DNA from: Undaria pinnatifida
Lineage: Eukaryota > Sar > Phaeophyceae > Laminariales > Alariaceae
DNA length: 64,000 nucleotides
NCBI GenBank assembly: GCA_012845835.1
Contig: JABAKD010000016.1
Coordinates: forward strand, 4,030,859-4,094,858
Direction: 5' to 3'
The notes beneath the pieces are model-generated. The model made no database searches, was not told the origin of the DNA, and was given only the letters and a program-made list of their open reading frames with translations. This document shows positions 1-29,800 of this stretch, one piece after another; position 1 is the first letter of the stretch; every line of letters begins with the position of its first letter. The position numbers and the translations under genes were made by a program.

Positions 1-239
1 GAATCTCCTGGAAGGAGTAGGAAGGTCGTCAAGCCCCATACGTGGCCCATGTGCGCGAAAATCGCAAAAGTCGGAAGAGGTGACCGGGAGCCCACCCAAG
101 GCATTACGTTCGGTGCGGGGCATTAGCGCAACCAAGCCGACACCCGGAATCGGAGAGGAAGGAGTGTGCAGCCCGCAAGCCCTTATGAGGTATATGCCAC
201 CATCCTCAACAGGGGTGAGACTCGTCGAACCAGTGCGGT

Positions 240-620
240 CATGTCCGGTGGCAGGCTCCGGTAAGCGAGACAGGAAGTCGGCGTTGCCGTTCGCGCTTCC
301 TTTCCGGTACTCGAGTGTGTAGTCAAACGCGGTGAGGAACTCGAGCCATCTTTGGACTCGGGCGTTGTGGCCCTGCACTTTACCTATGCTTTCCAGTGCC
401 TTGTGGTCAGAGAATATGCGGAACTTGGTCCCCCAAAGGTAGCCGCGGAGGCGTTTGAGAGTTCAAATGATGCTTCCAGCCTTCAAATCAAGAGGAGTCC
501 AATGCCTTTCCGAGTCTAGCGCAGTTCGGCTGATGTACGCGATGGGTTTTATGAAGTCGTCCGTCTGCTCCTGTTTGAGAGCGGCGCCGAACCCGTCGAT
601 GAAGACTTCGCAATACACGT
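240..620 (-). pseudogene. RNase H domain of the retrotransposon
   Basis: Pieced from minus-strand frames, the segment shows VFIDGFGAALKQEQ (first catalytic Asp with the GAAL strand), IAYISRTALDSERHWTPLDLK (the catalytic Glu helix), FRIFSDHKALESI (catalytic Asp) and the characteristic end EYRKGSANGNADFLSRLP. These are the standard Ty3/gypsy RNase H landmarks, in order and spacing. At least one stop (within AGSII before TLKRL) interrupts the domain. Downstream towards base 1 the sequence remains coding-like but ends before any HHCC integrase motif. Confidence 0.8.
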
Positions 621-849
621 GAAACGTGAAACGGGCGTAAGCCGTCGGTGACGGCGTCTCAAGAGGGGAAAACGAGGACCGGCGGGGTCGTGAGCTCCGC
701 CAATATTTCTCGCACCAACTTCTTCAAAGCAGGCGTCAATGAAAACTTAACCCCCTTCCGGAGGAGCGCGTTAATCTGACGAAATCTCTTCGACAAGTTG
801 GGCAAAAAATTGCGGTAATAGTTGACACCACCCTCATGAGTGCGCGCAC

Positions 850-1660
850 CTGATCAACGTCTGTGGGCATCGGCATATTGGTCAATGCCGACACTTTTTC
901 TGCGTTTGGGCGTAAGCCTGCTGGGGAAATGGAGTGGCCTAGAAAGTCGCATCGGTGGCACCCAATCGCGCCTTCAAGGGGAAAGCTTGATATTATGATT
1001 TAGGAGGCGCTCGAAGAGGGACCCAATCGTCCGAACATGCGCTACCGGATCGGAATCGAACACGATGGCATCGTCGAGGTATGCTTCCACCTGTTTCAAG
1101 TCCTGGATCACCTCATTGATGACCTTGACGAACCACCCAGGCAAGGCGCTGCTGTCCTGAGGCATAACGAGCCACTCGTAGAGGCCTGTGGGTGTGCATA
1201 ATGCTGTAAGGGGAACTGTGTCCTCGTGTGCCGTTATCTGGCGGAACGAGGAAATCAAGTCGAACAGGGAAAACACCCGACCTGAGCCTAAGGAGTCCAG
1301 AACCTGGTCCACGCGGGGAACCAGCAGTTGGCTAAGCTTGCTAATTTGGTTGAGCTTCTTGTAGTTTACCGTGATCTTCACGCCGCCAGATTTCTTTGGG
1401 ATGACCACCAGTGGGCTCGAATACGGTGAAGTCGAGTGCTGCATCAGCCCAGCCGCGAGGTACTGGTTGAGGATCGCGTCAACTTCTTCGGACAGTATAG
1501 AACTTATGCGATGGGGCCGTGAAGTGACCGGAGCGCTGCCCTCCAGACCGATATTTCGAAGGGCATCAAGGAGCAAGACCTACAATCCGTCTTCGAGATG
1601 GAGACCACGTCAGAAAAGTCACCGAGCACATCCCCCAGTTGCGCAATGGCCGGGGGGTCC
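850..1660 (-). pseudogene. Reverse transcriptase, Ty3/gypsy type, frameshifted
   Basis: The main frame is 1576-974. It contains the primer-grip side motif (SPYSSPLVVIPKK), the first catalytic Asp in FSLFDLISSF, the PQDSSALPGWF fingers/palm segment, and the catalytic AYLDDAIVF with the YxDD pair. The preceding frame (1893-1504) supplies the usual N-terminal FSDVVSISKTD lead. After 974 the thumb and connection continue in another frame (LGHSISPAGL, then NAEKVSALTNMP). At least two frameshifts therefore interrupt the domain. Catalytic residues are retained, so the damage is by indels rather than active-site substitution. Tentatively, the phrasing resembles brown-algal gypsy elements. Confidence 0.85.
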
Positions 1661-2388
1661 CAACCAGGGTCGTGTAAGTCGAACGAAATCTCCCGCAGGT
1701 GCGGCGGGAGTCGGGCCCAGATGCGTAGAAACGCAGAACGCTTGGTTGGGTTCAATCGTTCCATTAGCGCCGGCGAGGACAACGGCACGGTGGGAGCTGC
1801 CACCTCCGTGTCAGGCGAGCGCGCGACCGCAGAGACCTGACTTTCCAAAGTCTGGCCAGGGTGGGGCCCCGCAGCGTGGGTGGTGTGTTGCAAGGCACCC
1901 AGCGGACGCGTGAAATTGGGGTGTCGGCGACCCCGACGAGGTCGCCTGGCTCGAGGTCTTCGACACCTGTTAAGGGAAGCACCAGTCGCCCTGAAGCAAC
2001 GAAATGCTTCTGCCCCGAAAGAATGTCCGGCTGCGGCAGGGTGTCGACAGAGTAGTGTCCTGTGAGCGCAGGGGAGCCGTTACTGCGCACCAAGTTGACC
2101 GCGAGCAGCTGGGGCTCGTCCGACAAGGCGACACTTGTAGTGCTATCATAGAGGAGGTGGAAAGCACCGTTTGTAGCTGCGGGGTCGACGGCATAAGCCG
2201 CTACGCCTGTTGTGGCGTGGCGGGACAACGTCAGCTTGCCCAAAACCCCATTATCGAGGGGACGAGGGGGCAAGGCGCGGTACGAACGGGTATTGAAGCG
2301 CACCCAGCTGTCGCGGCTCAGCAAGACAGCGTGCTGCCATGACCGGTGGAGGGACCACGCATGCCCACACCGCGAGAGAGCACGTCGG

Positions 2389-2625
2389 TTATTTTTCGCG
2401 GAAAAAATGGACGCTCAGGCGGATGCGGGTCGCGGTCCGTGAAGGGGTGGATTCGCCAAAACCACCCCAGGAGCGAGGGCTGCTGGGCCTCCCGCACGCC
2501 GATGAAGCGGCGCCTACCAGTAGCATACGGTCCAACACGTCACGTCGGATGAAGGTTTGGGGGAAGCCAGTATCGAGGAGCGCCACACACCTGTAAGCCG
2601 CAATGATGTCCCCTCCGCTACGTAT
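2389..2625 (-). pseudogene. Retroviral-type aspartic protease region
   Basis: The minus-strand frame gives IIAAYRCVALLDTGFPQTFI. The ALLDTG motif, preceded by a hydrophobic strand and followed by a FI..DVL stretch, is the active-site loop of pepsin-like retroviral proteases; the catalytic Asp codon is near 2572-2574. The frame stops at 2389. Just upstream, the NADAR-linked frame ends at a TAG at 2618. Moving from that frame to the protease frame needs removal of one T from a short run near 2625. This is either a decay indel or, less likely, a programmed shift. The segment from 2389 down to about 1.9 kb continues in yet another frame (2324-1764) with no domain I can name. Confidence 0.7.
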
Positions 2626-2932
2626 TGCAATCTCGGTAGTGAAAGAAAACGTCTTCCAGCGTCACGGTACCCCCGGCGAGGCAGGGGCCGTGTTCTGGCA
2701 GCGCACGGCCTGAGACACCGTCAAAAGCTATCTCCAAAACCTGCGGACTTTGGTCGGCGGGTGTGCCCGAAAAATAGGCCGAAATACCCGAAGGAGGGCC
2801 TTGGCAAGCGCCGACCGCGGTCCCCGAGCGCGACGGCGGCGAGGACGAGATTTCGTATATTTCAGCATTCCCGATGGGGCTGCGGATCTGACGAGGGGAG
2901 GCCGGGTGTGGCGACCCGGCCTCGCTGTCGCA

Positions 2933-3386
2933 AATTGCTTCGCGAACGGCAGAAAGTGCGAGCAAATTTTTCCCTCTCCACTTGTGTGGGTTCTGGGCTC
3001 GGGGGTCGTCCGCCCGGAGACCAATACCCCGCACTGGGTCCAGGGGGCTGGTCTTGGCCAAAGGTTTGTTGCCAGTGCTCAAAAGGTGAAGTTTCATCGC
3101 TGGATTCTGCGTGAATTTGGCGTAGGTGCAAGATAACACGGCACTTTGCTTTTCCCTGTCCCAAACAGCGGAGTTAAAGTTGCGCACGCCTCGACCGACG
3201 CGTTTGTGTGTGCTTGGGTCAGGCGATGACATGATGCTCTCCACTGCGCGATGGTCTTTGAAAAATCTTGGCCTTTTCGGCCATCCTATACTGCTCCGCG
3301 CGAGAATATGATACGTCGCCCACGACGAATGACGAAGGGGACCACTTCGAAAAGTAGGACGGCCGTTGCCAGAACAACACCACGTT
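2933..3386 (-). pseudogene. NADAR (YbiA/DUF1768-like) domain inside the retrotransposon, frameshifted
   Basis: The frame from about 3386 to 3258 carries the domain's opening pattern: FW then SKWSPSSF, then SYSRAEQYRMAEKA, matching the conserved AEQY..KA signature. The frame from 3256 to 2933 continues with VWDREK, YAKFTQNPAMKLHLLSTG, a SPLD..RGIGL loop and HKWRGKNLL. The two halves are joined by a one-base insertion in an A run near 3257. The C-terminal GKNLL motif lacks about two residues compared with the usual GKNLLG form, and the Trp normally before GIGL is Arg. NADAR proteins hydrolyse N-glycosidic bonds, in riboflavin-intermediate clean-up or removal of ADP-ribose from guanine in DNA. 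Here the domain sits between gag and protease and is probably inactive in this copy. Confidence 0.8.
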
Positions 3387-4017
3387 GTCTGCGGAGTATT
3401 CGAGAGAAGGGTCAAAAGTCGACGGTGCCAACCCGTCGGAGGCCGTGTTAGAAATATGGGTCTGCAATGTCCCCGTCTGAGAACAGTAGTTCTCGGCACT
3501 TTGGGCCCGTAGCGTCCCCCTCTGGGAACGCTCGGCCTCGAGAGCACGACGAGTCCGAACCCACGGGTGCTCGCGTCGTGGTCTTGTCGCTCTTTGGCGT
3601 AAAACCGCAAGAAGCAGCTCTCGCTGCGCCCGAAGGGGCAGAGGGCTCGGAGCTGTTTCTGTTTGACGAGAGGCGCGATTCTTCCGTACTTCCACGGAAA
3701 TAGCGTCCAGCTGATCGGGCTGGAGGCCGTGGCGTCACCACTGGCCCGTTCCGCAGTGTCGGATCTCTTTCCTGTACCACTGGGGCAGACGTAGCCTGAT
3801 GCACGTGGGTTAGCGTGCCTAAAGACGAAGCAGGGCCAGTAGACCCTGTGGGCGTCTTCAAGAGCGGGCTTCGGGCAGCAGGTGGTAATATATTTCTTGC
3901 CCGAGGAGGCTTGTTTCCGTTAACCCTCTTGGAGAAAGGAGACGAGATAGCTAAGCTTGTCGACCCCTCCTTGATGGGAAAAAGGATAGAGCGCCCGCCA
4001 CTATCGGGAGGAATCAC
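3387..4017 (-). pseudogene. Gag-like N-terminal region of the retrotransposon
   Basis: An open minus-strand stretch of about 190 codons (4017-3448) precedes the NADAR domain. It is rich in Ser, Pro, Arg and Thr, as expected for a disordered gag or linker region. I see no CCHC zinc knuckle and no recognisable capsid fold. The call rests only on position upstream of the protease and RT. It overlaps another open frame (3695-3219) that carries the start of the NADAR domain, so frame changes have occurred here too. It could instead be untranslated leader or unrelated sequence. Confidence 0.35.
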
Positions 4018-5604
4018 CGGATCGAGCCTAAAAAAAAACTCGGTGTATCGATGTATCAGAGGGGCTGGCTTTTCCGCACCTCAAACCAACCGCCTCGTCG
4101 GGAAGAAGTAGAAGAGATGAACCCGCTCGCGTATGAGGGCGACGCGTCGTCACCGCAGCCTTTTTGCTGCGCGACGCGTGCCTGTTTTCTCTCGATATAA
4201 CATTTTGTGTTCGCTCTTTTTTGCTCATTAAAGATTGAACACGATATCACTTTAGTAAAAAGTACTACTACTACTGCTGTAGAACACTCACGCAGGCATG
4301 AAGTATTATTATTTGTGGTTCAACAGACCAAAAGTAGGAGACTAGTTCAGATTAGTCATTATTGTGGTTCGGCAGACAAAGTGGGAAACTACTTCAATAC
4401 CAAAACACCAAACGATACCACTTACAACAACAGCAGCAGCACTGTACATTATGTCGAGATTTTTCCGGTACAACTGCTACTACTCTGTAGTCGTAGTACA
4501 TGTCTGTGCTCGTAGTACATAAGACCTGGTACTTGATACCAGGGATGAAAAAATGAACAAGCTAATGCCTAGCCGTAGTATGTAACAAAGTGCAAAATCA
4601 ACTATTATTAATACCTACTGTAGATAGATTTACTACTACTACTACTACTGTTATAGTGTGCTGCTGTGTGTGTTGGTGTGGTGCTTAGTGATAGTATCAT
4701 AATTTTGGGTTTTAGTCGGTTTGGTTTGGGAAAAATAAAGGTTATTAAGCTCGCCACACTTTCACTCCCCCAACATATTATATTATATATTTCCGTGCCC
4801 ACCGCCGTGTGTTTCAATTTAACTCCTCCATTGTATTCGCATAATCAGACGTATCCCGCAGCTTGCTAAAATGGGTACCGACCCACTCTAAATTCATCAA
4901 CTCACAGCTGACAGCTGACGTGTTTGTTAGTAGATTTTTTTCCAAACATTAGTTAAATCCCCCCCTGTGAGAGAACCCCCAAGGAAGGAAGGGTGAATGA
5001 AGCTTCGATTCACAAACAAGAAGAGTACACAAGATACCTTTTTTGAGACGGTGGAGAGAATCCATGACATATCTGACGTCTATCTGATATTATTGTCATC
5101 GGGCGCATACAGTTACTACACAGTAGTCTGTTGCACAACAATGTATGTTGATGTGGAGGATCTGGGATCGATATTTTTGTTTGGATTGCTGCCTAGCAGA
5201 GGCGTTGGAGCTACCCAGGTGCATGCATTGCCCCCTTCATGTTTAGACTATTGAATAGTAGAGTATTTTATAACTAATTTTCAAGGACGTCAGCCGTGAG
5301 TTCGACGAATTTCAGGTCAATACTCATCTTTGCAAGCAAGCTGCGTTTATTATTCGGGTATCTTCGGTATCTTTTTTTTTCTTGCTGCACCTACAAGCAG
5401 TAGCAGTGGTAGCATATAGTCTTGATAAATATGTAGTAGTAGTCCAACATGAGGACAGACTAAACCTGAGGTATGTATGTCCAATAAGTTCCTTCCCCCC
5501 GCTTTTCTCCCCTCAGGGCCTGTGTGTGACATATTAGACTAGTAGTCTATATCTGTCTGTATAGACTAGATCTAGACTAAATAAAACGCAAATAAATGAA
5601 TCTG

Positions 5605-5636
<32 letters not shown>

Positions 5637-6111
5637 GGTGGTGGTGGTGTGGTGGTGGTGGTGATGTATGTCGACTATGCAGACAATGCACGTCGTTCTG
5701 TATCGACGCGAAAAAGCATTCATACTCCAGTGCTACCTGCCAGTGGGTGTTACCGACTCACGAGAAAATACAAGTTCTGCACGCACGGGAGAAGAAGTCT
5801 GGCCGAACCAATATGGGATCAACGTGCGTTCGTTGTTGTACGTATAGACCTAGTCATATACGTAGTCTAGACCACGTATAGAACAATTGGATATTATTGT
5901 AGCCTTGGCAATTGTTGTGACACACCTTTTGCCCAGCTCGCAGTTAGTTTTGCTGGCCTGCGTGCGAAGCACGTAGTCAATCAAGCAGAGTCAGCGCTAC
6001 AGGGTCAAGGTTTGATACAGCAGTTTGGATTTGTTGGGGCAGGGCTAGACTTGCTTCTTTGGAAGAAGTCGTACCCAAACCTAACTCCAGCTGCTGCTTG
6101 CTGCAGTAACA

Positions 6112-6282
6112 ATGCCACACCTTGTCGCAAAAGCCCAAAAAGCTGAAAATAAACCTGTCAACAGCTCACTGCCTGGAGACCTTGTTTTAGCGCTCAAGGA
6201 AGAAGACCAGGAAGAGTCAATCAAGGAACGGCTGAAAGGACCCACAAGACCATCCGATCACCGACCACCGAAAATGACTTAG
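6112..6282 (+). CDS. Small ORF of 56 residues, doubtful
   Basis: An ATG-initiated frame runs 56 codons to a TAG at 6280-6282. The product would be charged, with Lys and Glu clusters (KEEDQEESIKERLK) and a Pro-rich end. No family is recognised. There is no evident splice site or promoter. It could be a fragment of a mobile element or chance; the amino-acid mix is somewhat more protein-like than nearby frames, the only reason it is listed. Confidence 0.15.
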   Translation: MPHLVAKAQKAENKPVNSSLPGDLVLALKEEDQEESIKERLKGPTRPSDHRPPKMT

Positions 6283-7326
6283 AAAAACACCAAACGGCAG
6301 ATCTACGAACAAGAAAACCCCGGCTCTGGCAAGCTCTGATTAGAAACAAAAAGACAGCTCTACTCGTACTTGTACGTATTCTGAAACAGTCGCAGCTATC
6401 GCAAGCTCGACGCTTCGACTCTCGACGCTTTATTGAGGGCTCTTCGTAGGTCTAGTCGTCACTCGTGGCTGGTCTCGCGCTCATAAACATAGACTGCGCT
6501 GAGTGCACGAGGTGTATGCCTATGATGTACGACGCCTGGTAAATAGTACTACTATACTGGTGGTTGGTACGCATCAGTCCAGACTGCTGCTAAGTTGTTT
6601 TGTTTTTTGTTGTTGTGTATTCGAGGGTAGGGCGTCAATCTAGGCTGCATTGAGGGAGCCTGGTGTCGCCTCTCAATCCCTACTTGTTGACTTGTTGTGT
6701 ATTTTCGCGTGCACATAATTTTTCAGATACTACTCGTAGATTTCAGTTAGTCTACACGTAGGAGGCCAGCTCTATTTTAATTTCTTCGAAGGTCTGCCTC
6801 CCAAACGATACACTGACTATGGACTGAAATTTAAGGACCGTTTACAGTTTATACTACTAATAAAACTATCATTATACTCACGGACAGACTGTTTTTTTTT
6901 TTCGCCGCAAGTATATGATACAACCATGGTTGTTGCAAGTTGAAGATATTTCTTTTGCGGGGCAGGATTTTTCCCCATGATATGGCAGAACAAACAGCAA
7001 GATGCCACATGCATGACTACCGCGCGGGGAGTCCTCGTTCGCGATTCCCCGTTCATCCGCACCCGAGAGCTGTCCAGATGGGAGATAGGGAGATCGGCGG
7101 GAAGAGAGAGAACTCTATCAGTAAAATAGGCTCTACGTTTGTTTGTACCCCACACCACCATAGCCACATCACTCCACACCACCCCCACACCTCACACAAC
7201 GCCAAACCTCCTCCACATCAGATTCTCCAGACCAAAAATCAGCTCCACGCGGCTCTTCTTGCAGCAGGCGGCAAGCAGCAGCAGCTGCAGGCAGCAAGCA
7301 CCAGCGCGTTTCCACCGCAAGCACAG

Positions 7327-7347
7327 CAGCAGCAGCAGCAGCAGCAG
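7327..7347 (+). repeat. CAG/AGC microsatellite in the 5' leader
   Basis: About seven to eight CAG units lie immediately upstream of the start codon of the secreted-protein gene, within the presumed 5' UTR. Such a run is prone to length change and could influence leader structure. Its effect here is unknown. Confidence 0.7.
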
Positions 7348-7359
7348 AAAGAACAAACG

Positions 7360-10300
7360 ATGCCATCTTCTTCAACGATGTTCCGCCTGGCCACGGCAGC
7401 CGCGCTAGCCCTCTACCCGTCCCCGTTCTACACGGGCGTCAGGGCACAGGAGGAAGCCGAGCTCGATGACGAGGTCAGGCCGGCGCCTCCCTCCATCGGC
7501 GCCGACGTGCCGCTCGCCTACTTCGGTCCCGCCCCGTCCAGCATCGACAAACGCCTGGTAGGACCGGTGCAGCTGCTCCTTGCGGGCGTGATCGACGAAG
7601 ACTTGGCGACTATCCAGCTGCCGCTCTACACTGGGTACTACAAGGACGGTGAGTCGGGTGTTACACCGTGCCGGCGCGGCCGAAGTAAAGGGTGGGTGGG
7701 TGGGTGGGTGGGTGGGTGGGTGGGTGGGTAGGTAGCGGCTGCTACTACTGCTACTACTACTGCTACTACTGCTGTTGTGCTAGGTAGATAAAATGTCGGT
7801 ATCATATCTACTTCTTCTGTAGGTGTTCGTAGGTATGCGCGGCGGGTGGTGGGGCGCTGCGTGCCGGGTGCGTGGGCTGCGACAGGCTGGCTTTGCCGCG
7901 GGCTTTGGTTGTTTTGGATCCCAAGTTGATGTTCATGACCTCACCGAGATAGTGATCATGTCGAGGACCTCACCTGCTCTCTTGTGCGTACGGCTGCTGC
8001 TGCTGCTGTTATATCGGTTGGCTTTATAGCTGGTACCGTGGATATGTTGTTAACAGCGTACCAGCTATATCGCCAAATGTTAAAAACAATCATTTGGCCC
8101 ATGTTTTGTGTTGGTATGCCCGTTGACCGAGAGCTTCGCCGGCTCCGTGTGCTTCGTGTGATCTTCGTCCTTCCGACTTGCATGCATGCGTGTGCTGGTC
8201 CCGATTGCCGTATCTTCTACAGCACCCAGGCGACGACGAGTTGCAAAGAAAATCTCTCAAGAGAGAGCATATGCAACATGATGTATCAATAGCAGCAGCA
8301 GCTCTTTGCCGATGTACGAAGCGAGGCTTTGCTACGAAAAGCGATCAGTATGATCAGTATTTTTTATCTCTTCTCAAACACACCACGAACCAAAAACTCT
8401 TGTGTTTAGTCTAATACCTGGTACTTCGGAAGTATTTGTTGTAGGAAGCACCAGCCTCGCGCGCGAAACTATACAACAGCACTAACACGCCACACGCCCA
8501 CGCCCCAACAAAATGAATCCCAAGCCACAGCAGCAGCAATGGATATCGCACTCGCCCGCACATGAGAGATTGCCCCTCGCCAGCTTATTTCAGTGTTCTG
8601 CACACCGCACAGGATGCTTGCTGCCAGTATTCCTATACTATACCTACCTGGTACAGCCAAGAGTGTCGAATATATTTCAAAGTACAAACGCATGACATTA
8701 ATTTGTATGGCATAAATGATACGGCAATAAGAAGATACGAGCAAGCTGGCGATCCTCAATCGATTCAAGGCACAAAATAACGCGAAGACTACAAACAAAC
8801 ACACTTACTTGGCATTTGCTTGGAGTACCCAAAAAAAGCACTTGGGTTTATGTACCGGAAATTGCAAGATGTTCGCCAATGATTCTTCTGTTACTGCCCG
8901 CGTATCTTGGCAGTTCGTAGTCGGCGAATGTACGCCAGGCGGTGGACAACGTTTGAACCAACCACGCTCCGCCATAACGGCTCTAACGCATGCAAAGGAC
9001 ATATAATGGGAGGCGTGTACCCCCCCCCCCCCCCCCCACCCCGCCTTCGTGTCCGTGTGCGCATATCTTTTGTCTTTTTTCCCTGCAAAAGCATGCGCGC
9101 ACGGCACTTCTGCACCTACCCCAGGAAGAATGACAGATTAGTCTACACTACTAATGAATGGCACTTTGGTCCCATCAGACTATTAATATTATTCTATTCT
9201 GATACCATTTTATTTTTGAAGCCTTTTCATCCCCGACGTCATGGGCGCGGGGGGGGGGTGCAACGGGCGTATACCAGCAACATCAACAAAAATGCACTCC
9301 CTATTAATAGCTGCTGGATAGCTGGTTTACGTCCTTTTTAGAGTAACTAGGATGGGCAGATAGATACATGCTCGCGTGGTCATACGTTATTGCGTGGTCA
9401 TTAACTGACGCGGCGCTATATCGCCACCAATCAACTCGGTCGCTGTCGTTCGTCGGCCCCGCCGTCACTCTCTCGTTAGCCTGACGTATCATACTAGTCA
9501 CGTTGCGGAAGACAAAGCTAAGTTATACTTCGAACTGTGGACTATGTACGAGTATTAACAGTCAGATTTTACTGGCAGCAGGGAGGGGCTTTATACTGCT
9601 AAAAACATGTAACATCTGCACTGCACTCTAAATGTACGTAGTTTGGGTGGGTGCAGTTCTGGTGTTGGTCCCTGCTCAACTCATGTTCCCTCTCATACTC
9701 GTACTACCGGCAAATAACAACGTTTATTTCTATTCTAGTTTCCGAGTGTTAATAGTGTGACGCCGGAAACGGTCGGTGCAGCTATTGCAGTTTTTACTAC
9801 TGGCAGAAACCGTTTTTTTCTATTCTAATATGAAGTTGTTTGTCCCGAAAACGTGGGTGCGACGCTAATAATAAGCGGGAAAAGGCCAATCAACCTTCTT
9901 TCCAGCTCCAAACACGACGGGTACTCTTAATTCCAAGTGATTTTTTGTCCGTAAAAAGCCCCGGTCCAGCTAATAAAGCCTAGGGCGGTCAATGTGCTTT
10001 TTTTTCACCTCCCGCTATAAACTCCACCTCCCCGCTCGACGGATTCTAGCCGCTACTTAATCGTCGCCGACTATTCTGAATCATTTTCCAGCTTGCCAAA
10101 CGTTGCCATGTTGGCTACAACTTCCAAGTAGTAGTTGTCCTCAAGATCTTGGTTGCACTCCTTAAGAGTTAATCTCAACTCAACTCGTCGTGAATAAGCT
10201 CGTCTGCTTGCCCACCCAGCCACCAACCCGTCCCCTGTGAACCCACCCCATTCTCGTATTGTGCTCATAACACTCTTCCAGATCCAATCATGAAGCATTA

Positions 10301-13008: not shown

Positions 13009-15800
13009 AAAAAAGTTTTTCGAAAATGATCGAGATGGCGCATATGCATAGGAGAAAGGAGGGAGGGGATCAGGAAGACAAGAAAGTGGCCCTTTAAGGC
13101 AACAGAAGGATAGATGGATGGATGACATGGGTGGACGATGGATGCATGGGTAGGTTGGTGCGGGATGAATGGTGGAGGGAAACTATGTAACTACTATATA
13201 CTACTGTAGACCATATAAATAATACTAAGGATGGCGACTATGTACCTCCCTTCTACGTACTGGAGTTATACACGAGTTCTTTCCAAGCAGAGACAGGGTG
13301 TTCCAGTTGCACCCCCCCCCCCCGACACCTCCCGTCACATCGTTTCCTTTCCTCTCGGGATTTGGTTACGTGCAATTTCTTGTCGAGCGATGCCTACCTG
13401 TTGTTCGGTAAGGTTCGAGGGGGGGGAGGGCGGGGGGGGGGGGGGGGGCTTACCACTGTCTCTGAGTGAGGTCGGTGTTTCTGGATACTGCACGGTCGAT
13501 GATTGATTTTTTGCAACCATTTTCCGTGCTGTTGCCATTGCCGCCACCCCTCCTTATGAGTAGGACCATCCGTTGGTCGGTCGGTCGGTCGGTCGGTCGG
13601 TCGGTCGGGCGTGTCCGTCTGTCTTGCCGGCTATCTATCCGGCTAACTTGTTCGTCTGGTTGTCTGGCTGTTTAGCCCGTCCGTAGGGCTGTCTGGCCGG
13701 CGGGCTGTTGGGTTGGCTGGCCATCTGGCTGGCCGTCTGTGGGTAGTGTTGGTATTAGCTTGTCTTGCCTTGTGCTTCTTGCCTCGTCTCGTGACCCTTT
13801 CAAGCTTTCCTAGAAGGTCTATTATCGTGTGCCCTTGGCGTACGCGAGCCGGCAAAACGCTCGTTCGAGCCTTGCCTTGGTGGGGGCTTATTTTCGTGTT
13901 ATCGAGAGGTGTATCGCATACTGCTCCGCGGGTGCTAACAGCAAAAGTACCACCAGCAGGAGGAGGAGCAATAGCAACCGCGTTTTGTTTTGTGTTATCG
14001 AGAGGTGTATCATACTGCCTCGCGGGTGCTAACAGCAACAGTACCCCATCAGCAGGAGAAGCAACAGCAACCGCAGTAGCATCCGTGTTTTTAGATTGGA
14101 GGCGATCACCGAGTGGTACTTTATTCGCGTACCATCATGTTGCATCATGCATGTCCTTGTCGTTGTTTTTCGGCCGGAAGATCCGGAGTCGCCCCTCTTC
14201 AGTTCGAATGCGCCCTTCTTTTCTTTTCAGCAGCTTCCGTGTTGTCGAAAGCAACCTTCACGCAGCGTGTACCTAGTTTTCCATCGGTCCCTGATAGAAA
14301 AAATGAGCAATCAATGAACTTTTTCCTTTTGTGGCGTGCGTACTTCGGTGCCGTCTGCAAAACACCACAAATTATCCTTGAGGGATGCGGGGGCGGGGGC
14401 CGGGATGCGGGGGCGGGGGCCGGGATGCGGGACGCACTCACTCTTGTTGCTTGCCTCAAGTCATTTGACCATGGCTCGTTCTCCGGTAGCCCCCCTCCCC
14501 AACTTTTCTTCACCGAAATCCCCGGTTTTGAAACCAGCTGCCGGCCGTATCTCCCGAAATACGGTGTAGCCTTAAAGCTTTGCCACCCCGACGTCATCGT
14601 TTGTAATGTACTTTGCAAAACAAGAAAACAAGTAAAAGGTTTGCGTTTTCGTAGAATCCTTCCTCGCGTCGAGCAGCCGTGTGAAACGTTGGTTAAAGAC
14701 AATCGCTGGTTTTGGGGGGAAGGCCATCGTGGAATCAGAGTCACGAAAGCCTTTTCGAGATGGGGTGCCGTTCGTTTCTACTCCTGTTATAGAGACATGC
14801 GGGGGAGGGGGGGCTCATTTCGTGCATGGCCGTTGACATGCGCGCGCGCGGGGGGGGGGGGGCGGTGTAAGGGTATATATTAGCGGTTGATTGGTGTCTA
14901 ATCTATCTGCGGCACGTTGTTTTTGCTGCTGGGTAAGGGGGGGTGAACAACTTTTCGTTGAACCCTTTGGTTAGTTGATTGGTTTGCTTTAGTTTGGTGC
15001 GTTCATAAACATGCATAATACGCAGTGCACGGTAGGCAGCGTTTGGGTATGTGTTCGCGTAGCCGAGGCATATGCACGGTGTGTAGTTTACGTAGCTCTG
15101 GACACACTTGAGGTAGCAGTTTACTTGGCTTTTCGTGGTAAACGTAATAAAAGGGAACATGAATGAGCATAACATTAATGACGTCATCCAAAACACATGA
15201 GATGGGTCGTCCCAACGGTTCGGCAAGCGTTTTACAACTTCGAATCATCAATGAACTCAAACTATTTTTCAAAGTACGAGAGGTTTCGAAGACAACACAC
15301 ACGTCACCCCAGCTGTGAGATCTGAACCTAAAAAACAAACGTAATATTGCCAATCTAACACCTAGTCGTGTGGATGATAAGTTATTACAACGTCATCTTG
15401 AGTTCTTTTAGGTCCTAGCTCATGAAACTCATTGAAGACGGGCGATCGATGTAGTAGTAAGCAGCTTGAAAATGTTTGTCAAGTGTCGACCCTAAATCCG
15501 TCGAACTCACGGCTGACGTCGTTATAATCACTTTACAACTTTTAGTAACACATACATGTATGTGTTAGCTCTTCCCCAAACTTCAGCTATACAGCAGGCC
15601 GCCGGTAACCTGCTGCTGTTTTCTAGCACTTCAAGTCATGCATGATAAGTATTGTAATACAATACCATCTAATTTCGGGTTCTGACTCATGAAAACTTAC
15701 TAAAACCCAGCGGGCGGCGTGTAGTACGCAGCTTGCAAATATGAGCATCGACCCCAATTTCGTCGAACTCACGGCTGACGTTGTCAGAATAATTTCATGA
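13009..15800. other. Intergenic, downstream of the secreted-protein gene
   Basis: Begins with the 3' flank of the gene. It contains C and G homopolymer tracts (13312-13323, 13420-13449, 14853-14862), a GGTC tetranucleotide run at 13575-13607, two near-identical units around 13890-13945 and 13990-14045 (ending in GGTGCTAACAGCAA), and a 20-bp GGGGGC-type tandem at 14388-14428. Two direct copies of the AACTCACGGCTGACGT repeat end occur at about 15462-15530 and 15725-15800. No gene is supported. Confidence 0.5.
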
Positions 15801-15809
15801 AATGAGATG

Positions 15810-16193
15810 TGTTAAGGCAATAGTGGGGGTATTGGTCCGTTCGACCACTTGCAAAAGGTGAACCAATAATAGCTTACCCAAACTAAGCCTTATAACACTC
15901 CCCCCCCCCTGAAACGGCGGGATAGCACAGGTCGGCCGGATATACGGGCGGGCCTCTGTCAATATCCAAGCGCGGTTTCATTTCCTGGGGATACCGGGGA
16001 GAGTATTTTTCAAGTTCGACATACATGGATGGGGAAAAGTCTAAAAAAGTTTATTGTTGTGGACGGTGAGATTCGAACCCACGACCCGAAAAACCCATGG
16101 TCCTGCCAACGACGCCATTTGTTAAGGTACGTATTATTAGTGGAATATTAGTCCGTTTGACCACTTGCTCAAAAGGTTAGCCAAGATAGCTTA
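15810..16193 (-). mobile_element. TRIM-like element, copy 1 (5' LTR truncated)
   Basis: Terminal repeats of about 90 bp flank a roughly 220-bp core. The left repeat is 15810-15897; the right starts at 16120 and breaks off near 16193. Polarity is minus: from the truncated repeat inward come AATGG, the tRNA-like module (about 16060-16118), then the core, then a G-rich polypurine tract, then the intact repeat. The tRNA-like module has a perfect GTTCGAATC B box. No coding capacity. No target duplication can be scored because one end is lost. Confidence 0.75.
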
Positions 16194-16507
16194 CAGCAGA
16201 TAGATGGGTAATCCCACATTTTTTTTCGTGTGCAGTGTTCTTCAACTCGCGAAGTCACAACGCGGCTTTCAAGAGTTTTTAACGGAGAAGAAAAAAAACT
16301 GCCACACGTCAGCAGCTAGCTGTGATATCTGAGAAGGCGGTCTCCATCGACGGAAAACAACCAACGTCTTCAATTGGTTTGAACTAATTGATTGGGGCGT
16401 TGCATCGTAGAGGTATACATGAACGTGGCGATCGAGGGGGCGGGTGTTTGCGGCAATGCACACGCCTAGAAAAAAGAAGGGACTGCCCATCTCATTTATT
16501 ACGCTCA

Positions 16508-16906
16508 TGTTATGGTATTAGTGGGGGTATTAGCCCGCTTGACCACGTGCAAAAGGTTAACCAATAACAAATTACCCAAACTAAGTGTTATATATAACAT
16601 TCTTCCCCAGTGAAACGCCGGGATAGTAGGTCGGCCGCGGATATACGCGCGGAACTGTCAATATTGAAGCGGTTTCATTTCCTGGGGACACCAGGGAGAG
16701 TATTTTTCAAATTCGACATGGTAGGGAAAGTCTGAAAAAGTTTATTACTGTATTGTGGATGGTGGGATTCGAACCCACAACCCCCCAAAAAACCATGGTC
16801 CTGTCGACGACGCCATTTGTTAAGGAATTAGTGGGTATTATTAGTCCGCTTGACCACTTGTTGCAAAAGGTTGACCGATAGCTTACCCAAACTAAGCCTT
16901 ATAACA
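16508..16906 (-). mobile_element. TRIM-like element, copy 2, complete with 4-bp target duplication
   Basis: Terminal repeats are 16508-16599 and 16818-16906 (92 and 89 bp). On the minus strand they begin TGTTATAAGG and end in TAACA, the TG...CA form of LTRs. CTCA flanks both ends (16504-16507 and 16907-16910), a 4-bp target duplication. On the minus strand the core starts AATGGCGTCG directly after the 5' repeat, where a primer-binding site belongs, and ends with a purine run (GGGGAAGAA) just before the 3' repeat. Within the core lies a tRNA-like T arm (GTGGGTTCGAATCCCAC, five-pair stem and seven-base loop). The element encodes nothing, so it would need enzymes supplied by an autonomous LTR element. 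Confidence 0.85.
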
Positions 16907-17340
16907 CTCAGATCTCACAGCTGGGGTGAGGTGTCACAACGTTTACGCCTTAAAAACAATAGCCATGGTGATTGCTGTCACCGCCGAAGATCAGCAGACA
17001 TGTCAAGTCAACGGAAAACGCGCGCTGTCAAGGTCGTTGGGCGGCGTGTTTCATACTAAATCCTAGTAGTCTGGAGTCAGTCAAGGGGTGTGACGCGATT
17101 TCGTCGGCGCCATCGAGTGTTGAATCCTTACGACGTATATTCACCGAACCTGATAACGTCAAAGGAGATGCGCACACACGTCTGTTTGTTTTTGGCGTGT
17201 GAGCCCTTGTCAAACGCACCGATTTACTCCGATTATAGCAAGCACCCTCTTGCATTATCATCCTGTTGGCTTGGTTAACATGTGTTTGGGCTTTTTGCAC
17301 ATGTGCACGTGCGATTGATGAGCGCCGATGTAAACCAATG

Positions 17341-17945
17341 GTACGCTGGGGGGAATGTTGTGATGTTGTTATGTTATGATGATGATGTTATGATGATGTT
17401 ATGATGATGTTATGATGATGTTATGATGATGTTATGATGATGTTATGATGATGTTATGGTGATGTTATTATTATGTTATTATGATGATGTTATGATGGTG
17501 TTATTGTGATGACGTTATTATGATGACGTTATGATGATGTTATGATGATGTTATGATGATGTTATGATGATGTTATGATGATGTTATGATGATGTTATGG
17601 TGATGTTATTATTATGTTATTATGATGATGTTATGATGGTGTTATTGTGATGACGTTATTATGATGACGTTATGATGATGTTATGATGATGTTATGATGA
17701 TGTTATGATGATGTTATGATGATGTTATGATGATGTTATGATGATGTTATGGTGATGTTATTATTATGTTATTATGATGATGTTATGATGGTGTTATTGT
17801 GATGACGTTATTATGATGACGTTATGATGATGTTATTATGATGACGATGTTATGATGATGTTATGATGATGTTATGATGATGTTATGATGATGTTATGAT
17901 GATGTTATGATGATGTTATGATGATGTTATGATGATGCTATGCTG
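17341..17945 (+). repeat. 11-bp minisatellite (GATGATGTTAT) with higher-order structure
   Basis: About 600 bp of an 11-bp unit. A variant block (GGTGATGTTATTATTATG...GTGATGACG) recurs at about 17451, 17592 and 17744, spaced 141 and 152 bp, that is, differing by exactly one 11-bp unit. The array lies between TRIM-like copies 2 and 3. Confidence 0.95.
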
Positions 17946-18419
17946 ATGTTAGCTACAACATACCCCCAATTTCACCGCACGACGAGTGATGAACCGTTTT
18001 CCCAAACGCCCACAAAAAAGAAATGACCTTTTTTGTGCCAATTTTTTTAGGCGCGCAGCGTGTGGCTTTTGTCTCGCGGGTATATATGATTGAAAAAATT
18101 AAGCACCTTAAGACTGCGAAGGAATAGGGGGGTTACTAGCGCCAGCGATCCCGAGCCACTACATACAGGAGGCCAGTGGTAAAGAAGGCTCCTAGAGTGA
18201 CTCCCCGCTACCATAGCCCGGATCCCAACTATTCCGTAATATAGGATATGAATTACCTTTCATGGTGATAGCGCCGACTACACTATGAATCAGGGCATTG
18301 GTTAGGATTGCGGCGTTAGTTGCGCGCGGTGCAACAGGAGCTGGAAGGCGTGTTGCACGCACAGCGCAACATGGGCGACAGGGATGCAAGCCTTCGCGCA
18401 GGGCCTCGGAAGGGCCGCC

Positions 18420-18612
18420 GGTGCCCCCCCCGTCCCTCCCCCCTCCCCCCTCCCCCCCGCCCCCTCCCCCCTCCCCCCCCCCCCTCCCCCCCCCCCTCCC
18501 CCCCCCCCTCCCCCCCCCTCCCCCCCCCCCCCTCCCCCCCCCCCTCCCCCCCCCCCCTCCCCCCCTCCCCCTCCCCCCTCCCTCCCCCCCTCTCTCCCCC
18601 CCCCCCCCCGAG
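18420..18612 (+). repeat. Pyrimidine tract, (C5-10)T type
   Basis: Nearly 190 bp of C runs broken by single T residues. The complementary strand is G-rich and could form G-quadruplexes or a triplex. Long open frames here merely translate the tract as poly-Pro or poly-Gly. Confidence 0.95.
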
Positions 18613-18724
18613 TAGGAGGCATCGAAGGCGTTTTTTAGACAATACCGTGAATATGAGTATTATTTATTGCTTTCACCATGAAAGCGTCGATTACATCTGG
18701 AAACCATCTATTAGAGCTGTGACG

Positions 18725-19111
18725 TGTTAAGGAATTAGTAGTGGGGTATTCGTCCGTGTGATCACGTGCAAAAGGTTAACCAACAGCTTACCCAAATAAA
18801 CTAAGCCTTATAACACTCTTCCCCCCTGAAACGGCGGGATAGCATGTCGGCCGGATATACGGGCGGACCTGTCAATATCCAAGCGGTTTCATTTCCTGGG
18901 GATACCGGGGAGATTATTTTTTTTATTTTTCAAGTTCGACATGGGGAAAGTCTGAAAAAGTTTATTATTGTGGATGGTGGGATTCGGACCCACGACCCAA
19001 AAACCCATGGTCTGTCGATTACGCCATTTGTTAAGGAGTTAGGGGGTATTAGTCCGTTTGACCACTTGCAAGAGGTTAACCAATAGCTTACCCAAACTAA
19101 GCCTTATATCA
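18725..19111 (-). mobile_element. TRIM-like element, copy 3, complete with 4-bp target duplication
   Basis: Terminal repeats are 18725-18815 and 19029-19111. GACG flanks both ends (18721-18724 and 19112-19115). The polypurine tract on the minus strand is AGGGGGGAAGAG, abutting TGTTATAAGG. The tRNA-like module in the core retains the A-box-like segment and the B-box arm with one change (TTCGAA to TCCGAA). Having a different target duplication from copy 2 shows independent insertion. Confidence 0.85.
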
Positions 19112-19115
19112 GACG

Positions 19116-20600
19116 CTCTGACATGACACATCACGCAGTTCATCAAAGAGAACTGACCTCGTGTCACGTCTGATATGTATCATATACCTCTACGGATATC
19201 ACTCCATAATATTAGCCCACCCTGAATCGTCGTAGATGCAGATCATACGACAACATAAGGATGTCAGCAAAACAATCCAGAAATTGGAAAGGGGATCGAA
19301 AATCAATCTATTCAAAACAAACGAAAATGAGGCTGCAGATCCCCCCACACCTCGTAAAGAGGCTAAGACGCCTCTTCTTGCAAATGAGTTGAAACCCCGT
19401 GACGTAGCTCACAACAGTCGGAGCTCGAGATCGGGTATGTCTGCACCTGCGACATACCAACAGCGATCGGGTTACAAAAGCGCGAAGGGCTGTAGACAAC
19501 CGAGCGCGAGGATGCGAAGGGAAACAAGGGAAAGGTACAGAGGCTGAAACAAAGTCAGAAGGTAAATAGGAAAAAGCATGTCACACCGCTGCAAAGGGGC
19601 AACAAACTGAGGCCTGCAACGTGATGCCTAAGGGGTGAGCGTGGGGCCATTTTGGTCGAAAGGCAAGAGAAAAGGCAGAGCACGCTGCAGAAACCAATGC
19701 CAGTGTCCCCACCGTGGACCCGGAAGGCTGACGTGGGGCCACTGATCGAAAGGCAAAACAAAAATAACCAGTTCGCTAAGAAGTAGTGGAAACGGGGGCC
19801 GTAATATGGGACCGGGGAGGCGAGCATAAGACCTTTGATCGAACTGTAAAACGGAAAACCGGGGCTACCAAGAAAAATCGCGAGAACACGGAAAAGGGAA
19901 ACACATAAACCCATTACCCGCTGACACTACGGTAAGTCTGTGGCGAAATTCCACACTTTACCGGGGTTCTCTGTGACAAAGAGTCCAGATCTGTCCGTCC
20001 GTCCGTCCGGTCACTCTTTGTACTAGAATAAACACTGCCAAGAAGATTCATTATCAAATTAACACACATTGTTAGCTCACAACGGTTGGCAGACGTAGCA
20101 GTCCGTCCGAGTGTCTGCTGGAACAAAACCCTCTCTCTGCCAGAGTTGGCCTTAAAAGAATGAATACCCTTCGTAGCTCTCAAAGGGTACCACCACTCGA
20201 GCTACACGCAGTACTACCATCTCACTATTATTGCTGCCGCTACTACCACGGCCAGCCGTGTGGTCCCTTGTTTTAGTGCACGGTCTTGCCATGTGACAAC
20301 AACTGCACCAAAGCGAGACCCAGACCTACTATCGCGGTTTAGTGACGAGGCATCCCTCTATAGTGCGGTGCGGCGTAGGGGCTTGTTGCATTTTTTTTAG
20401 TTTAAGGTGTCCCACTTTAAGAGTCCCTAAATCCCTTCCTATACAAACTTCAAGTAGATTTGTCCCCCCCCCAAAAAAAAAGGGTTTCCAGAACTTTTAA
20501 CCTTGCAAAGGCGTTCAGACCTCTCATTCTCCCAAAAATCGATTCCCTTGTGAACAAAAATGAAAAATTCCTCCTATACCGGAGACGTGAACAATCCCGT
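19116..20600. other. Intergenic, nothing recognised
   Basis: Anonymous sequence. A CGTC tetranucleotide patch (20000-20012) and one TATAGTGCGGTGCGG motif near 20360 are the only features noted. No splice-consistent coding stretch was found. Confidence 0.4.
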
Positions 20601-21660: not shown

Positions 21661-23540
21661 TGCAGGTTTGTTTCTTTCGTCTCTCGGCCGAGCCGATTTG
21701 TTTTCCATGGTATTTTGCTATGTATGTAGTGTCTCGACCATGCCAGCTGCCGGAGTACCTAACTTACGGTAGCTTGCGCGTTTCGTGTTTTTTCTTCTTG
21801 GCCGAGTCGACTTGTGAATTGGTGCTTTTTTTCCTGTCTGTTATAGAATCGACTGGTGAATTGGTGCATCATCCCGCCCCCCCCCCCCTCAGATATACAT
21901 TACCGAGTCAATAAACTTGTTTGTTTGTTTAGCCTATCTTTCCTCGATCAAGTCATCCCAGCGATCAAAGGGCTCGCAGGTACGTCCCAGATTAGAGCCG
22001 AGGCGGAGCGGTGCGTGCGTCACCCAGCGACTTGACAATTAGTTCGCTACTGTTGTTGTAGTACCACTTTTTTGGGTTATGCAGTCGTAGTCCCGTGCTA
22101 GTGCGGCAAAACCTTCTTGTGCGACCCCCCCAGCTGAGTGCGGTGAACATCGCTTTGTGTCACGACCTCTAGTCTATATACGTACTGCTGTAGTACGGGT
22201 TTAGCGCTACAACAATGCGTGGTTCCGCTTTGGTGCATTTGTTGTCACACTAGTAGATGAGGGACCACGACACTACTGTACAGTACCACTTTATATGCGA
22301 TGCCACTCACTGTTGTTGCTGTGATGCCACTGTTGCGGGAAGGGGGGGGGGGATGTCACTGTTGCTGTGAGATGTCACTGTCCCTGTGATGCCACTGTTT
22401 TGTGGGGGGGGGGGGGGGTGACCGACGGAAACGACACGACGATGACTTCAATTCACCTCGGAGCTTCCACGGATCATACAACAAAAAAAAAGAGAGACGA
22501 ATGGCACAGCAGACAGGGCGCAGCACCAACAAACAACTCAAACGACCTCAAGGAATCAAGAGCAAAAAAAAATGAGAGAAACAAAAACAAGAGGGGACGA
22601 AGATTCGTCGAACTCACAGCTGACGTTGTTAGAATATTTGTATATAAAAAAAGAGAAAATAGGTTTTTCTTTCGCGGCACCCCGCACTCTTTCTCCATAC
22701 ACACCCGCGCACCACCACATAATAAATAATACTCGAACAACAGTACAGTATACTGGTATTGTTTAGTACCAGCCTCGCCCCCCAGACGCGACCCACGGCA
22801 GCATCAATCGCCGAATCGGTGTTACTCGAGCTTGCGGCGAGTCAGCACAAGGAAAAAAAAACGCACCACCATTACATCGCCCGCTCAGTAGAGTCCGCAA
22901 GAAAGCCAATGAAAATCCGCGAGAAAGCCGGGTACAAAACCCAAACCACCCCACCCTTTCCCCACGCCCATAACCAGTCGATGATGGCGCATTCTTACCT
23001 CATCTCGGACGTACTACAACAGCAGCACACCTTACATGCGGCCGGCACGACACACTCTACACCGAGCGACGAAAAAAACTCCGATGGGGACACCTATCTA
23101 ATGCACGGCGGGATCACATAATATTGCAGGCGTCTTCGCCGTGCGTGATGGACTTTGCTGTCTGGTCTCCGATGACAGAGAACGGGCAGCTAAAAAACTG
23201 GAACACTATAGTGGGAACGTTTTCCGTTTCTTGAGTATCTTAAAGGGGGAGGGGGGGGGGCTTGTCTCCCCTAAAAGAAAAAACAACTACAATGTCGTCA
23301 GGACGCACACAACAACACAAAAAACATTGGTTGTGGACATCTCACATACGCCCCACTAGAAAAAAGAATCCCTCTCCCCCTTTGTCTCCTTCTGCCCCTT
23401 CTCAGAAGGTCGAACGCTAACCCACAGCCGAGGAGGCTCGGTAAGAACTCCTCAAGACACGCCAAGCGATCGTGATAATTACGCTTCTTTATCCCAACGC
23501 TATCTGATAACATGCCTGCCTGCTACATTGCAAGAAACCG
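21661..23540. other. Intergenic, low-complexity patches
   Basis: Contains G runs at 22340-22351 and 22404-22418, two GATGTCACTGTTGCTGTGA-type units near 22350-22400, TAGTGCGG-type motifs at about 22100-22150, and one AACTCACAGCTGACGTTG repeat end at 22609-22630. No gene is supported. Confidence 0.4.
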
Positions 23541-26800: not shown

Positions 26801-29800
26801 TGCTCGCCGATTCTTCATCGAATTTTTTGCTATCATATCTCAACACACACACTCGTGCTTTCCGCTCGTCAAGTTTTCCGCAAGAAAAAAAAAAACTACG
26901 AGCACGAGTGTATATGCACTCGGTGAGAATTGAACCCACAACCTTGACGATATCAGAAGTAGGGGCGACATTCACCTATTAATACTGCTGTAGTACTCCA
27001 TCGGGGACACCGACATGCAATATCCGCTACCGTAGCACCCGTGCAGCGCGCCCTACTATTAATAGCATCAACATACCCGGCGTATTACGGTGTTTGCGAA
27101 CTGCAGTATATTACGGTGTTTTTGCGAACTATTATACCAATTTTGGTTCGGTAGGGGCAGGGTAAGAAAACGTATCGAATGAAAAAAATACAGGGCAGAC
27201 GACAGAAAGCGGTATACCGCAGCCATTCCGCGCCACCGTGCGGTACAGCAGAATACACGAAGGAGTTTGACCCCGATCCGCGACGCTGATTGGTCAACTC
27301 AGCCTCGTACCGGTTTTTGACACCAACTCCTCGCGGCACATCGTACAGCCGGCTTTCAGCTCGGCCGTCACCGCTTTCTGGCGTGATCCATACCGCTTTC
27401 TGGCGGAAAATATACCCTGCGGACAGACTTTGCCCGAGGCTCTTCACGTTCCGCACCGTTTCAAATTCCGACCGAATCTCAACCATGGGCGCGCCACGTC
27501 ATGTAGACTGCATGGCTACAAGACCACATTTAGAAGGCCATGTAGAAGGCAACATGCAACATGATCCCGATCATTTCAAGGTCCACATTTCAACACTCGA
27601 AAAAAAAATTGTTTCGTACATAACCAGTAGTGTAGTGTACGACGACAGATCGCGCCATCACTTTAAGGATACCTTTTTTTCTGAGGCTCGGTTATTTTAT
27701 TATTTGTCAATGGGGCATCTTTTATGGGTTTTGGTGTGTATGGGTAGTGTCTTATAGGTTATTTTCCGGGAATCTCAAGTAAGCCCAAGTCTTCAACTAC
27801 CAAGTTCAAGTGGTGGCGTCCTCTCTCTGCGTGGATTTCAACAGAATGCGGTGTACGAATACGCAAGGCGGACGAGAGAGTGGTGCGTGCGCATCGTAAG
27901 GGCCGATGGTGGCGCCATCGATAGCGAGGATTTCAACAGAATGCGGTGTACGAACGCGCAAGGCGAACGCGAGGTGGTGCATGTATGGGCCAAGAGGGTC
28001 GTGCGCGTGTAGCGGGACTGTCACTCCCCCTTTGCCCTTTTGTCCTATCCTTTTCTCCGCCATTCATACATACATACGAGTACGTGGGGTGTGCGAGCTG
28101 TCTATGGTTGAGCAGCGGTTCGTGCTGTGGCGTTGCAATGATTATTCTGAAGGGATCCGAAACATGGCAGCGAGCAGTTCTATGCATGCTACATGACGTG
28201 GCGCCCATGGTTGAGATTCGGTCGGAATTTGAAAGGATGAGGGGCGTGAAGAGCCTCGGGCAAAGTCTGTCCGCATGGTAAATTTTCCGCCAGAAAGCGG
28301 TATGGTTCACGCCAGAAAGCGGTGACGGCCGAGCTGAAAACCCACTGTACGACGTACCGCAAGGAGTTGGTATCAAAAACCGGTACGAGGCTGAGTTGAC
28401 CAATCAGCGTCGCGGATCGGGGTCAAAAACCTAGGTGTATTCTGCTGTACCGCACGGTGGCGCGGAATGGCTGCGGTATACCGATTTCTGTGGTCTGCTC
28501 AAAAATAAAATACACTACTCCAGCTGTGAGATCGAAGATTTCGTCGAAACAAATACCAGGTAATTGCAAGCTGTGCGCGATACTCCGATCGCGCGTATTA
28601 CTGGGTGTGTGTCCTCATTAAGGATACAGGTCGGCGACTCCCCTTGGAACCACAGCGTAGCAGCTCGTACCAGGGTCAACAGGGTGACGTCAATCAATCT
28701 GTGCACAGAAACCATTAAACTCGTTTTTGAGGGAGACAATTCTGACGGCTGTGGAACGCACCAGTTTATTACGTAGGACGGAAAAAACATGTAATACCAC
28801 TAATAGTACTGAAACCGTCCAACGTCAAAAATCCAAGGCCAACCCAGCCCACCACGAAAAAACTCGAGCCAAAAGTCAGGTTAAAAACATGCCTTCCTCT
28901 TATTAATTTATCTTGGTATTTTCCAATCTAATTTCTTTTCGTGGGTAGGTGGGTCTTGGGTTTATTATGTTCGTCGCTTTCGGTATAATATTTCAGACTA
29001 TTAACAAGGGCAGACTAGACTGATGGTTTAGCACGAAAACAAGGCACACGACACCGTAGGCTACCTGACCCCTCCTCCTCTGACCCCCCCCCCCTCCTCC
29101 TCCCGGGCTCCCCCAATATCCATATAGTAGTTAGTCTCGGTTGGCACCGACGCTGTAAAACATTACCTGGTATACGTGTATTGGGGTTGGTATTGGTTGG
29201 CAACGATGCTGTAAAACATGCCGATCACCGCGTGAGCTAGACAACCAGGGTACCGTTTTTTTCTTCTTTTTTTGACGGTCACCATGATAGTTATCGAGTT
29301 ACATAGATCATATTGTGCGGGGTGGAGAACCCTAACTCCGCACAAGGGGAATTATCCCATTACGTAGTGTGAATATGGTAAGGCACCCACGATGCAGAGT
29401 TACATAGTAATACCCGCTGCTGTCTCTGGAGTGGCCACACCAGAAAACAAAGTGACTCATTGTCGCTGTCATCCAAAAGCAAGAAAGTAGGCAGAAGGTG
29501 CCGAAGTTCGTCCTTCGAGCGGTTCTTGGGAGGATGCAGTTCACCCTTTCTATGCGACTCGCTGAACACCTCACGGCACTTCGCGCTTGGTGCAAGCAAT
29601 GTCTGCCTGGTTGGTGAAAACCCGATGTGCTCCGTCCCGGCATAGTAGGGATGCGAGGGTCCATGGTCATACGATCACGGCCATGCACAAACTGAGCACA
29701 CTCACTCCGGGGAAATGGGCATTACCCTGACTCACCGTGAACTCTCACTGAGTACACCCACTCCGGGGAAATGGGCATTACCCTGACTCACCATGAACTC

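Follow-up and report, generated by a model that had tools for sequence, protein, structure and literature searches.

A family of short TRIM elements with a tRNA-like T arm in the core

Three minus-strand copies of a small LTR element are found in the window, the whole 64-kb stretch of DNA analyzed here. The copies, c1 (385 bp), c2 (399 bp) and c3 (387 bp), share an LTR–core–LTR plan and are 79–81% identical in pairwise comparison (Table 1). The family is a TRIM whose core contains a tRNA-like piece, and we consider it probable that it is a non-autonomous element of about 390 bp that is transcribed from its LTR, mobilised in trans and carries a captured 3′ piece of a tRNA. The TRIM reading is based on two LTRs with TG...CA ends at less than 1 kb, a sequence led by TGG in the position of the primer-binding site (PBS), a polypurine tract (PPT) beside the 3′ LTR, and short target duplications of 4 bp. 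The initial annotation had likewise proposed three LTR–core–LTR copies, with terminal repeats of 83–92 bp, two different perfect duplications and a polypurine run beside the 3′ repeat, and had recognized a TRIM-type element with integrase-type target duplications. We confirm each of these features, except that c1 is incomplete, with a truncated 5′ LTR.

Table 1. Positions of the three TRIM copies and their parts in the window
Feature	Position	Strand	Remark
TRIM copy c1, 5′ LTR truncated at outer end, without target duplication	15810..16194	-	
TRIM copy c2, complete, 399 bp	16508..16906	-	
TRIM copy c3, complete, 387 bp	18725..19111	-	
c2 target duplication CTCA, left	16504..16507	.	
c2 target duplication CTCA, right	16907..16910	.	
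c3 target duplication GACG, left	18721..18724	.	
c3 target duplication GACG, right	19112..19115	.	
c1 5′ LTR (truncated)	16120..16194	-	
c1 3′ LTR	15810..15897	-	
c2 5′ LTR	16818..16906	-	
c2 3′ LTR	16508..16599	-	
c3 5′ LTR	19029..19111	-	
c3 3′ LTR	18725..18815	-	
c1 putative PBS TGGCGTCGTTGGCAGGAC, includes the A box of the initial annotation	16100..16117	-	complement has tRNA 3′-end form
c2 putative PBS	16798..16815	-	
c3 putative PBS, degenerate	19009..19026	-	
c1 tRNA T arm and B box, GTGGGTTCGAATCTCAC	16066..16082	-	
c2 tRNA T arm and B box, GTGGGTTCGAATCCCAC	16762..16778	-	
c3 tRNA T arm and B box, GTGGGTCCGAATCCCAC	18977..18993	-	
c1 polypurine tract	15898..15910	-	
c2 polypurine tract	16600..16608	-	
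c3 polypurine tract	18816..18827	-	

Five of the six LTRs are intact, measure 83–92 bp and have TG...CA ends, typically TGTTATAAGG...CCTTAACA. The sixth, the 5′ LTR of c1, has lost its outer end, so that c1 is incomplete and shows no target duplication. Both complete copies are flanked by perfect duplications, CTCA for c2 and GACG for c3, which are exactly 4 bp, with longer stretches of the flanks mismatching; by our own arithmetic, each has a chance probability of about 1 in 256, the ends being fixed beforehand by TG...CA. The polypurine run adjoins the 3′ LTR, and TGG begins 2 nt past the 5′ LTR, in all three copies. In both complete 5′ LTRs, TATAA is located at position 4; in the 3′ LTRs of all three copies, it is located at position 4 or 8. 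Each of the three cores contains AATAAA, which could cut a Pol II RNA short, and this is counted against the preferred explanation. The cores also hold a short minus-strand frame, of 14 codons in c1 (15978–16022; MSNLKNTLPGIPRK) and c2 (16675–16719) and of 17 codons in c3 (18889–18942), which may represent the beginning of a gag gene.

When the two flanks of c2 are joined, the resulting sequence aligns over the junction with 15335–15299 (37 bp, 89% identity, E = 2e-8). Judged from this alignment, 15335–15299 is perhaps a related unoccupied site, or the pre-insertion target in a related repeat, with a match that is mostly one-sided. The joined flanks of c1 and of c3 give no match across the junction, and the 200-base flanks of the three copies do not match each other except where they overlap. 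When only substitutions are counted, the LTRs within a copy are 87% (c1), 88% (c2) and 90% (c3) identical, which supplies the LTR-to-LTR divergence that the initial annotation had named as a check; between copies, they are 84–94% identical (12 pairs). Because these ranges overlap, the insertions appear to be similar in age, and the values fit old insertions.

The copies cluster within 3.3 kb (15810–19111) in the same orientation, and no other copy is present in the 64 kb. With a profile built from c1–c3, the sole other match listed is a 24-base piece at 26944–26921 (E = 0.5). That three copies are all that the 64-kb window offers is counted against the preferred explanation. Between c2 and c3, at about 17360–17950 and 18424–18612, there are a long GATGATGTTAT-type satellite and a nearly pure C/T tract. 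A second dispersed repeat is located at 15486–15533, 15748–15795, 5287–5337 and 22604–22639, and the core GTCGAACTCACGGCTGACGT is common to the copies read.

The sequence that follows the 5′ LTR had been annotated as a tRNA module, with a meaningful A box, replacing the PBS. In the 3′ direction, TAACA is followed by AA and then by TGGCGTCGTTGGCAGGAC in c1, TGGCGTCGTCGACAGGAC in c2 and a degenerate version in c3. The complement of the TGG-led stretch in c1 and c2 takes the form of the 3′ end of a tRNA, in which G is the discriminator, CRACGAC the acceptor and CCTGY the T-stem. A putative ordinary PBS is the simplest reading of this stretch and the more likely one, and a replacement of the PBS by a tRNA module is unsupported. 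The candidate primers are presumably tRNAs for Ser, Asp, Asn or Arg; the primer sites for Ser and Asp tRNAs in Ty3/gypsy elements of animals and plants are similar in appearance. A T loop together with the deduced tRNA end occurs in five prokaryote stretches, one of which makes up the 3′ end of a predicted tRNA-Asn from an archaeon; the other four lie outside any predicted tRNA, and this is counted against the reading. The deduced 3′ end is absent from the viral contigs scanned.

The A box of the initial annotation has one mismatch in c1, two in c2 and one in c3. When the region upstream of the T arm is shuffled, the best A-box-like match has 0–1 mismatch in 149 (c1), 203 (c2) and 186 (c3) of 500 shuffles. 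Since such matches appear in 30–41% of shuffles, the A box does not exceed chance, and we do not retain it. An A-box-like stretch, TGGTCRARCGGR, occurs with 0–1 mismatch in five of the six LTRs (the exception is the 3′ LTR of c3), which is also no better than chance. A PBS that starts TGGCGTCGTYGG can be mistaken for an A box.

The T arm fares differently. As annotated, a B box in sense orientation lies within a five-pair T arm 3′ of the 5′ LTR, in the core of all three copies; relative to the arm of c2, c1 and c3 each differ by one change. The strict form of the arm (Watson–Crick stem, G53–C61, loop opening with TT or TC), which was defined post hoc with the copies already seen and permits the loop C of c3, occurs 5 (c1), 8 (c2) and 5 (c3) times per 10,000 shuffles, and the loose form occurs 153, 147 and 142 times, respectively. 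c2 and c3 satisfy the strict form, whereas a G–T pair restricts c1 to the loose form. Elsewhere in the window, there are four loose T arms and no strict one. The T arm with its B box is thus present more than chance. The arm has two changes per 51 bases, which is not clearly fewer than in the remainder of the c1–c3 alignment and is counted against the preferred explanation. An otherwise ordinary TRIM in which the arm is a chance hairpin would differ from that explanation in the T arm only. This reading draws on the roughly 1.5% of shuffles with loose arms, on the loose form of c1, on the four loose arms elsewhere and on the many other motifs that might have drawn the reader's attention; however, the rarity of the strict form in shuffles and its confinement to the elements make it unlikely.

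The arm resembles those of real tRNAs. In the fetched viral loci, the 20-base sequence made up of the T arm and CAT is present at 122 or more places, and ARAGORN returns at least 82 tRNA calls, at least 42 of them Leu, on the viral stretches that contain them; it is this recurrence at tRNA-called places that shows the resemblance. A tRNA-Leu predicted in two viral contigs (L012 and L013) shares with the element an exact match of 25 bases that spans the T arm, the acceptor strand and the discriminator. This match is not specific: it shows only tRNA-likeness, since its 20-base part is so common and at least two of the places have that ending. A 17-base core pattern is found in six viral contigs, where further similarity is short at most, two 20-base element patterns match no viral contig, and a gapped core pattern has no match in prokaryote genomes. 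A short degenerate motif is below chance in the window. In Rfam, weak matches to tmRNA, of the tRNA/tmRNA clan, lie over the arm in c3 (E = 0.04, 12.7 bits) and c1 (E = 0.44, 10.3 bits), both falling far short of the gathering score (47), and no Rfam match in the window reaches its gathering score.

A complete tRNA is not observed. At its normal setting, ARAGORN finds no tRNA in the window, and none in the elements with introns allowed. When the threshold is relaxed to 80%, c2 and c3 each receive a sense-strand call and c1 an antisense one; in controls that keep the T arm and have everything upstream of it shuffled, sense tRNA calls that use the arm appear in 241 (c1), 360 (c2) and 247 (c3) of 400. 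A split tRNA gene, composed of an LTR part and the core T arm in c2 and c3 under relaxed ARAGORN, is rejected, as 60–90% of controls give such a call. The 5′ acceptor strand (GTGGATG or GTGGACG) is absent from all three copies, so that the tRNA, if real, is 5′-truncated. Of the annotated tRNA-like sequence after the 5′ repeat, therefore, the T arm stands and the tRNA is incomplete. No LTR contains a T arm, even with one mispair allowed.

A further stretch with a T arm, GTGGGTTCAATTCTCAC at 26939, lies on the minus strand at 26844–26988 and is perhaps a SINE or a tRNA pseudogene. It has a weak plus-strand match (E = 0.73) to the plastid ycf2 5′ UTR family, which we take to be tRNA-like, and a T11 run within a foldback, with a weak MIR530 match (E = 0.54).

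In the mechanism that we propose, Pol II would probably make an RNA that starts at the TATA-like sequence of the 5′ LTR. A host tRNA, with a 3′ end complementary to TGGCGTCGTYGRCAGG and ending CCTGYCRACGAC-G, would prime this RNA at the TGGCGTCGTYGRCAGGAC site, and an autonomous LTR element would supply in trans the enzymes for copying and integration. Nothing in our results pointed to priming by the element's own folded RNA, as the initial annotation had suggested might occur. No autonomous partner was found, which is counted against the explanation. The core 3′ of the PBS would correspond to the 3′ part of a tRNA gene, with the T arm, the position of the acceptor 3′ strand and a T run, and with no 5′ acceptor half. 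This piece most likely derives from the capture of a tRNA or SINE fragment, and it would be a passenger or at most a lone B box. LTR-type reverse transcription requires R at both ends of the RNA and hence a start in the LTR, a point that PMC10886601 also makes. T5–T6 runs lie on both sides of the B box in all three copies, in numbers not above those of shuffles. An RNA begun at the core boxes would have no 5′ R and would meet these runs, and so would probably be a poor transposition template. We therefore regard a mobile RNA made by Pol III as unlikely, and Pol III transcription of the whole element, given the T runs and the chance-level A box, is not our leading model.

Three other readings concern the role of the T arm. 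It could be a hairpin of the leader RNA between the PBS and a gag start, with a palindromic TTCGAA loop that resembles a dimer-initiation site, and its tRNA look would be convergence; the retroviral dimer-initiation hairpin is the model for this. The arm does sit between the PBS and the 14–17-codon frame in all three copies, and a consensus fold adds four pairs to it, GGGT with ATCC, one of them a wobble in c1. However, the folding z values of the hairpin are −0.1 (c1), −1.9 (c2) and −1.6 (c3), which at the usual limits do not set it apart from shuffles, and those of a longer region are 2.4, 0.3 and −0.7. The whole leader of c2 gives 0.5, c1 folded alone does not form the consensus stem, and the palindrome is broken in c3. 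The dimer hairpin is unsupported by folding energies, and we think it improbable. To the same degree we doubt a third design of TRIM bearing an RNA gene, in a stramenopile, in which the PBS would double as an A box and act with the core B box, TFIIIC would bind the element after integration, making it a promoter of short RNA or a boundary, and the mobile RNA would come from the LTR. Least probable is a TRIM/SINE chimera whose transcription by Pol III would use the core B box and an A box situated at the PBS or within the LTR: the B box starts 38 (c1), 40 (c2) and 36 (c3) bp beyond the PBS start, and the LTR stretch TGGTCRARCGGR makes a Pol III start within the LTR possible, but A-box matches and composite tRNA calls are as frequent in the shuffled controls as described above, the T5–T6 runs should stop Pol III, and a core-started RNA would have no 5′ R region for the first strand jump.

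In the surroundings of the elements, a reverse transcriptase frame (974–1576, minus strand) has 482 relatives, and the named ones among the best 120 of the 482 are all from Ectocarpus sp. CCAP 1310/34. Among the matches listed, the best identity to Ectocarpus sp. CCAP 1310/34 is 65%, and an ENA protein reaches 98% identity, with 72% of the query covered. The frame at 2618–3610 (minus strand) has a NADAR domain, and one Ectocarpus Gypsy lineage carries NADAR (PMC12477816). The two frames are perhaps one Ty3/gypsy element (974–3610, minus strand) like that lineage. Direct repeats of at least 40 bp are absent from 1–8000.

We compared the preferred TRIM with known systems. As in tRNA-derived SINEs, a sense B box is followed by a T run; in contrast, our elements have LTRs, a PPT and 4-bp duplications, and the complete tRNA head with A and B boxes that characterizes such SINEs is missing at the normal ARAGORN threshold, the relaxed calls being at chance level. 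Retrozymes have a hammerhead ribozyme in the LTR, and no hammerhead is among the five weak Rfam matches in 15000–19800. 5S rRNA, which Cassandra and Ajax have in the LTR, is not among these matches either, although a very short 5S piece might escape. According to PMC10886601, Cassandra is likewise a small LTR element carrying an RNA-gene-like sequence; however, its 5S sequence is in the LTR and its RNA runs from the 5′ LTR to the 3′ LTR. Cassandra had been named as the sole analogue, which is outdated, since Helenus and Ajax are described there as TRIMs with tRNA- or 5S-derived LTR sequence. TRIM/SMART elements, in the same source, share with our family a size below 1 kb, two LTRs, a PPT, a sequence in the PBS position, short duplications and no coding capacity found; our family differs in its host, probably a brown alga, and in the T arm of its core. 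Among the papers listed in searches of open literature, no brown-algal TRIM with a tRNA sequence appears.

The closest comparison is with Helenus (TRIMp3), a TRIM of similar size with tRNA-derived sequence and a separate PBS and PPT, of which the animal families also make 4-bp duplications (PMC10886601). Its hosts there are fungi, animals and one plant (Selaginella). In Helenus, the A and B boxes are in the LTRs, whereas here a sole T arm is in the core; with no T arm in the LTRs, we do not file the family under Helenus. For Helenus and Ajax, whose RNA-gene sequence is in the LTRs, the source (Kojima 2024, PMC10886601) reports that the tRNA-like part was not found to be complementary to the PBS. 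TRIMs other than Cassandra with pieces of Pol III genes were first described in 2024 (PMC10886601), and in these the LTR holds the RNA-gene sequence. A family with the tRNA piece in its core, from a lineage that belongs to neither fungi, animals nor plants, would shed light on how captures of this kind begin, and would also bear on whether a promoter must sit in the LTR to be useful.
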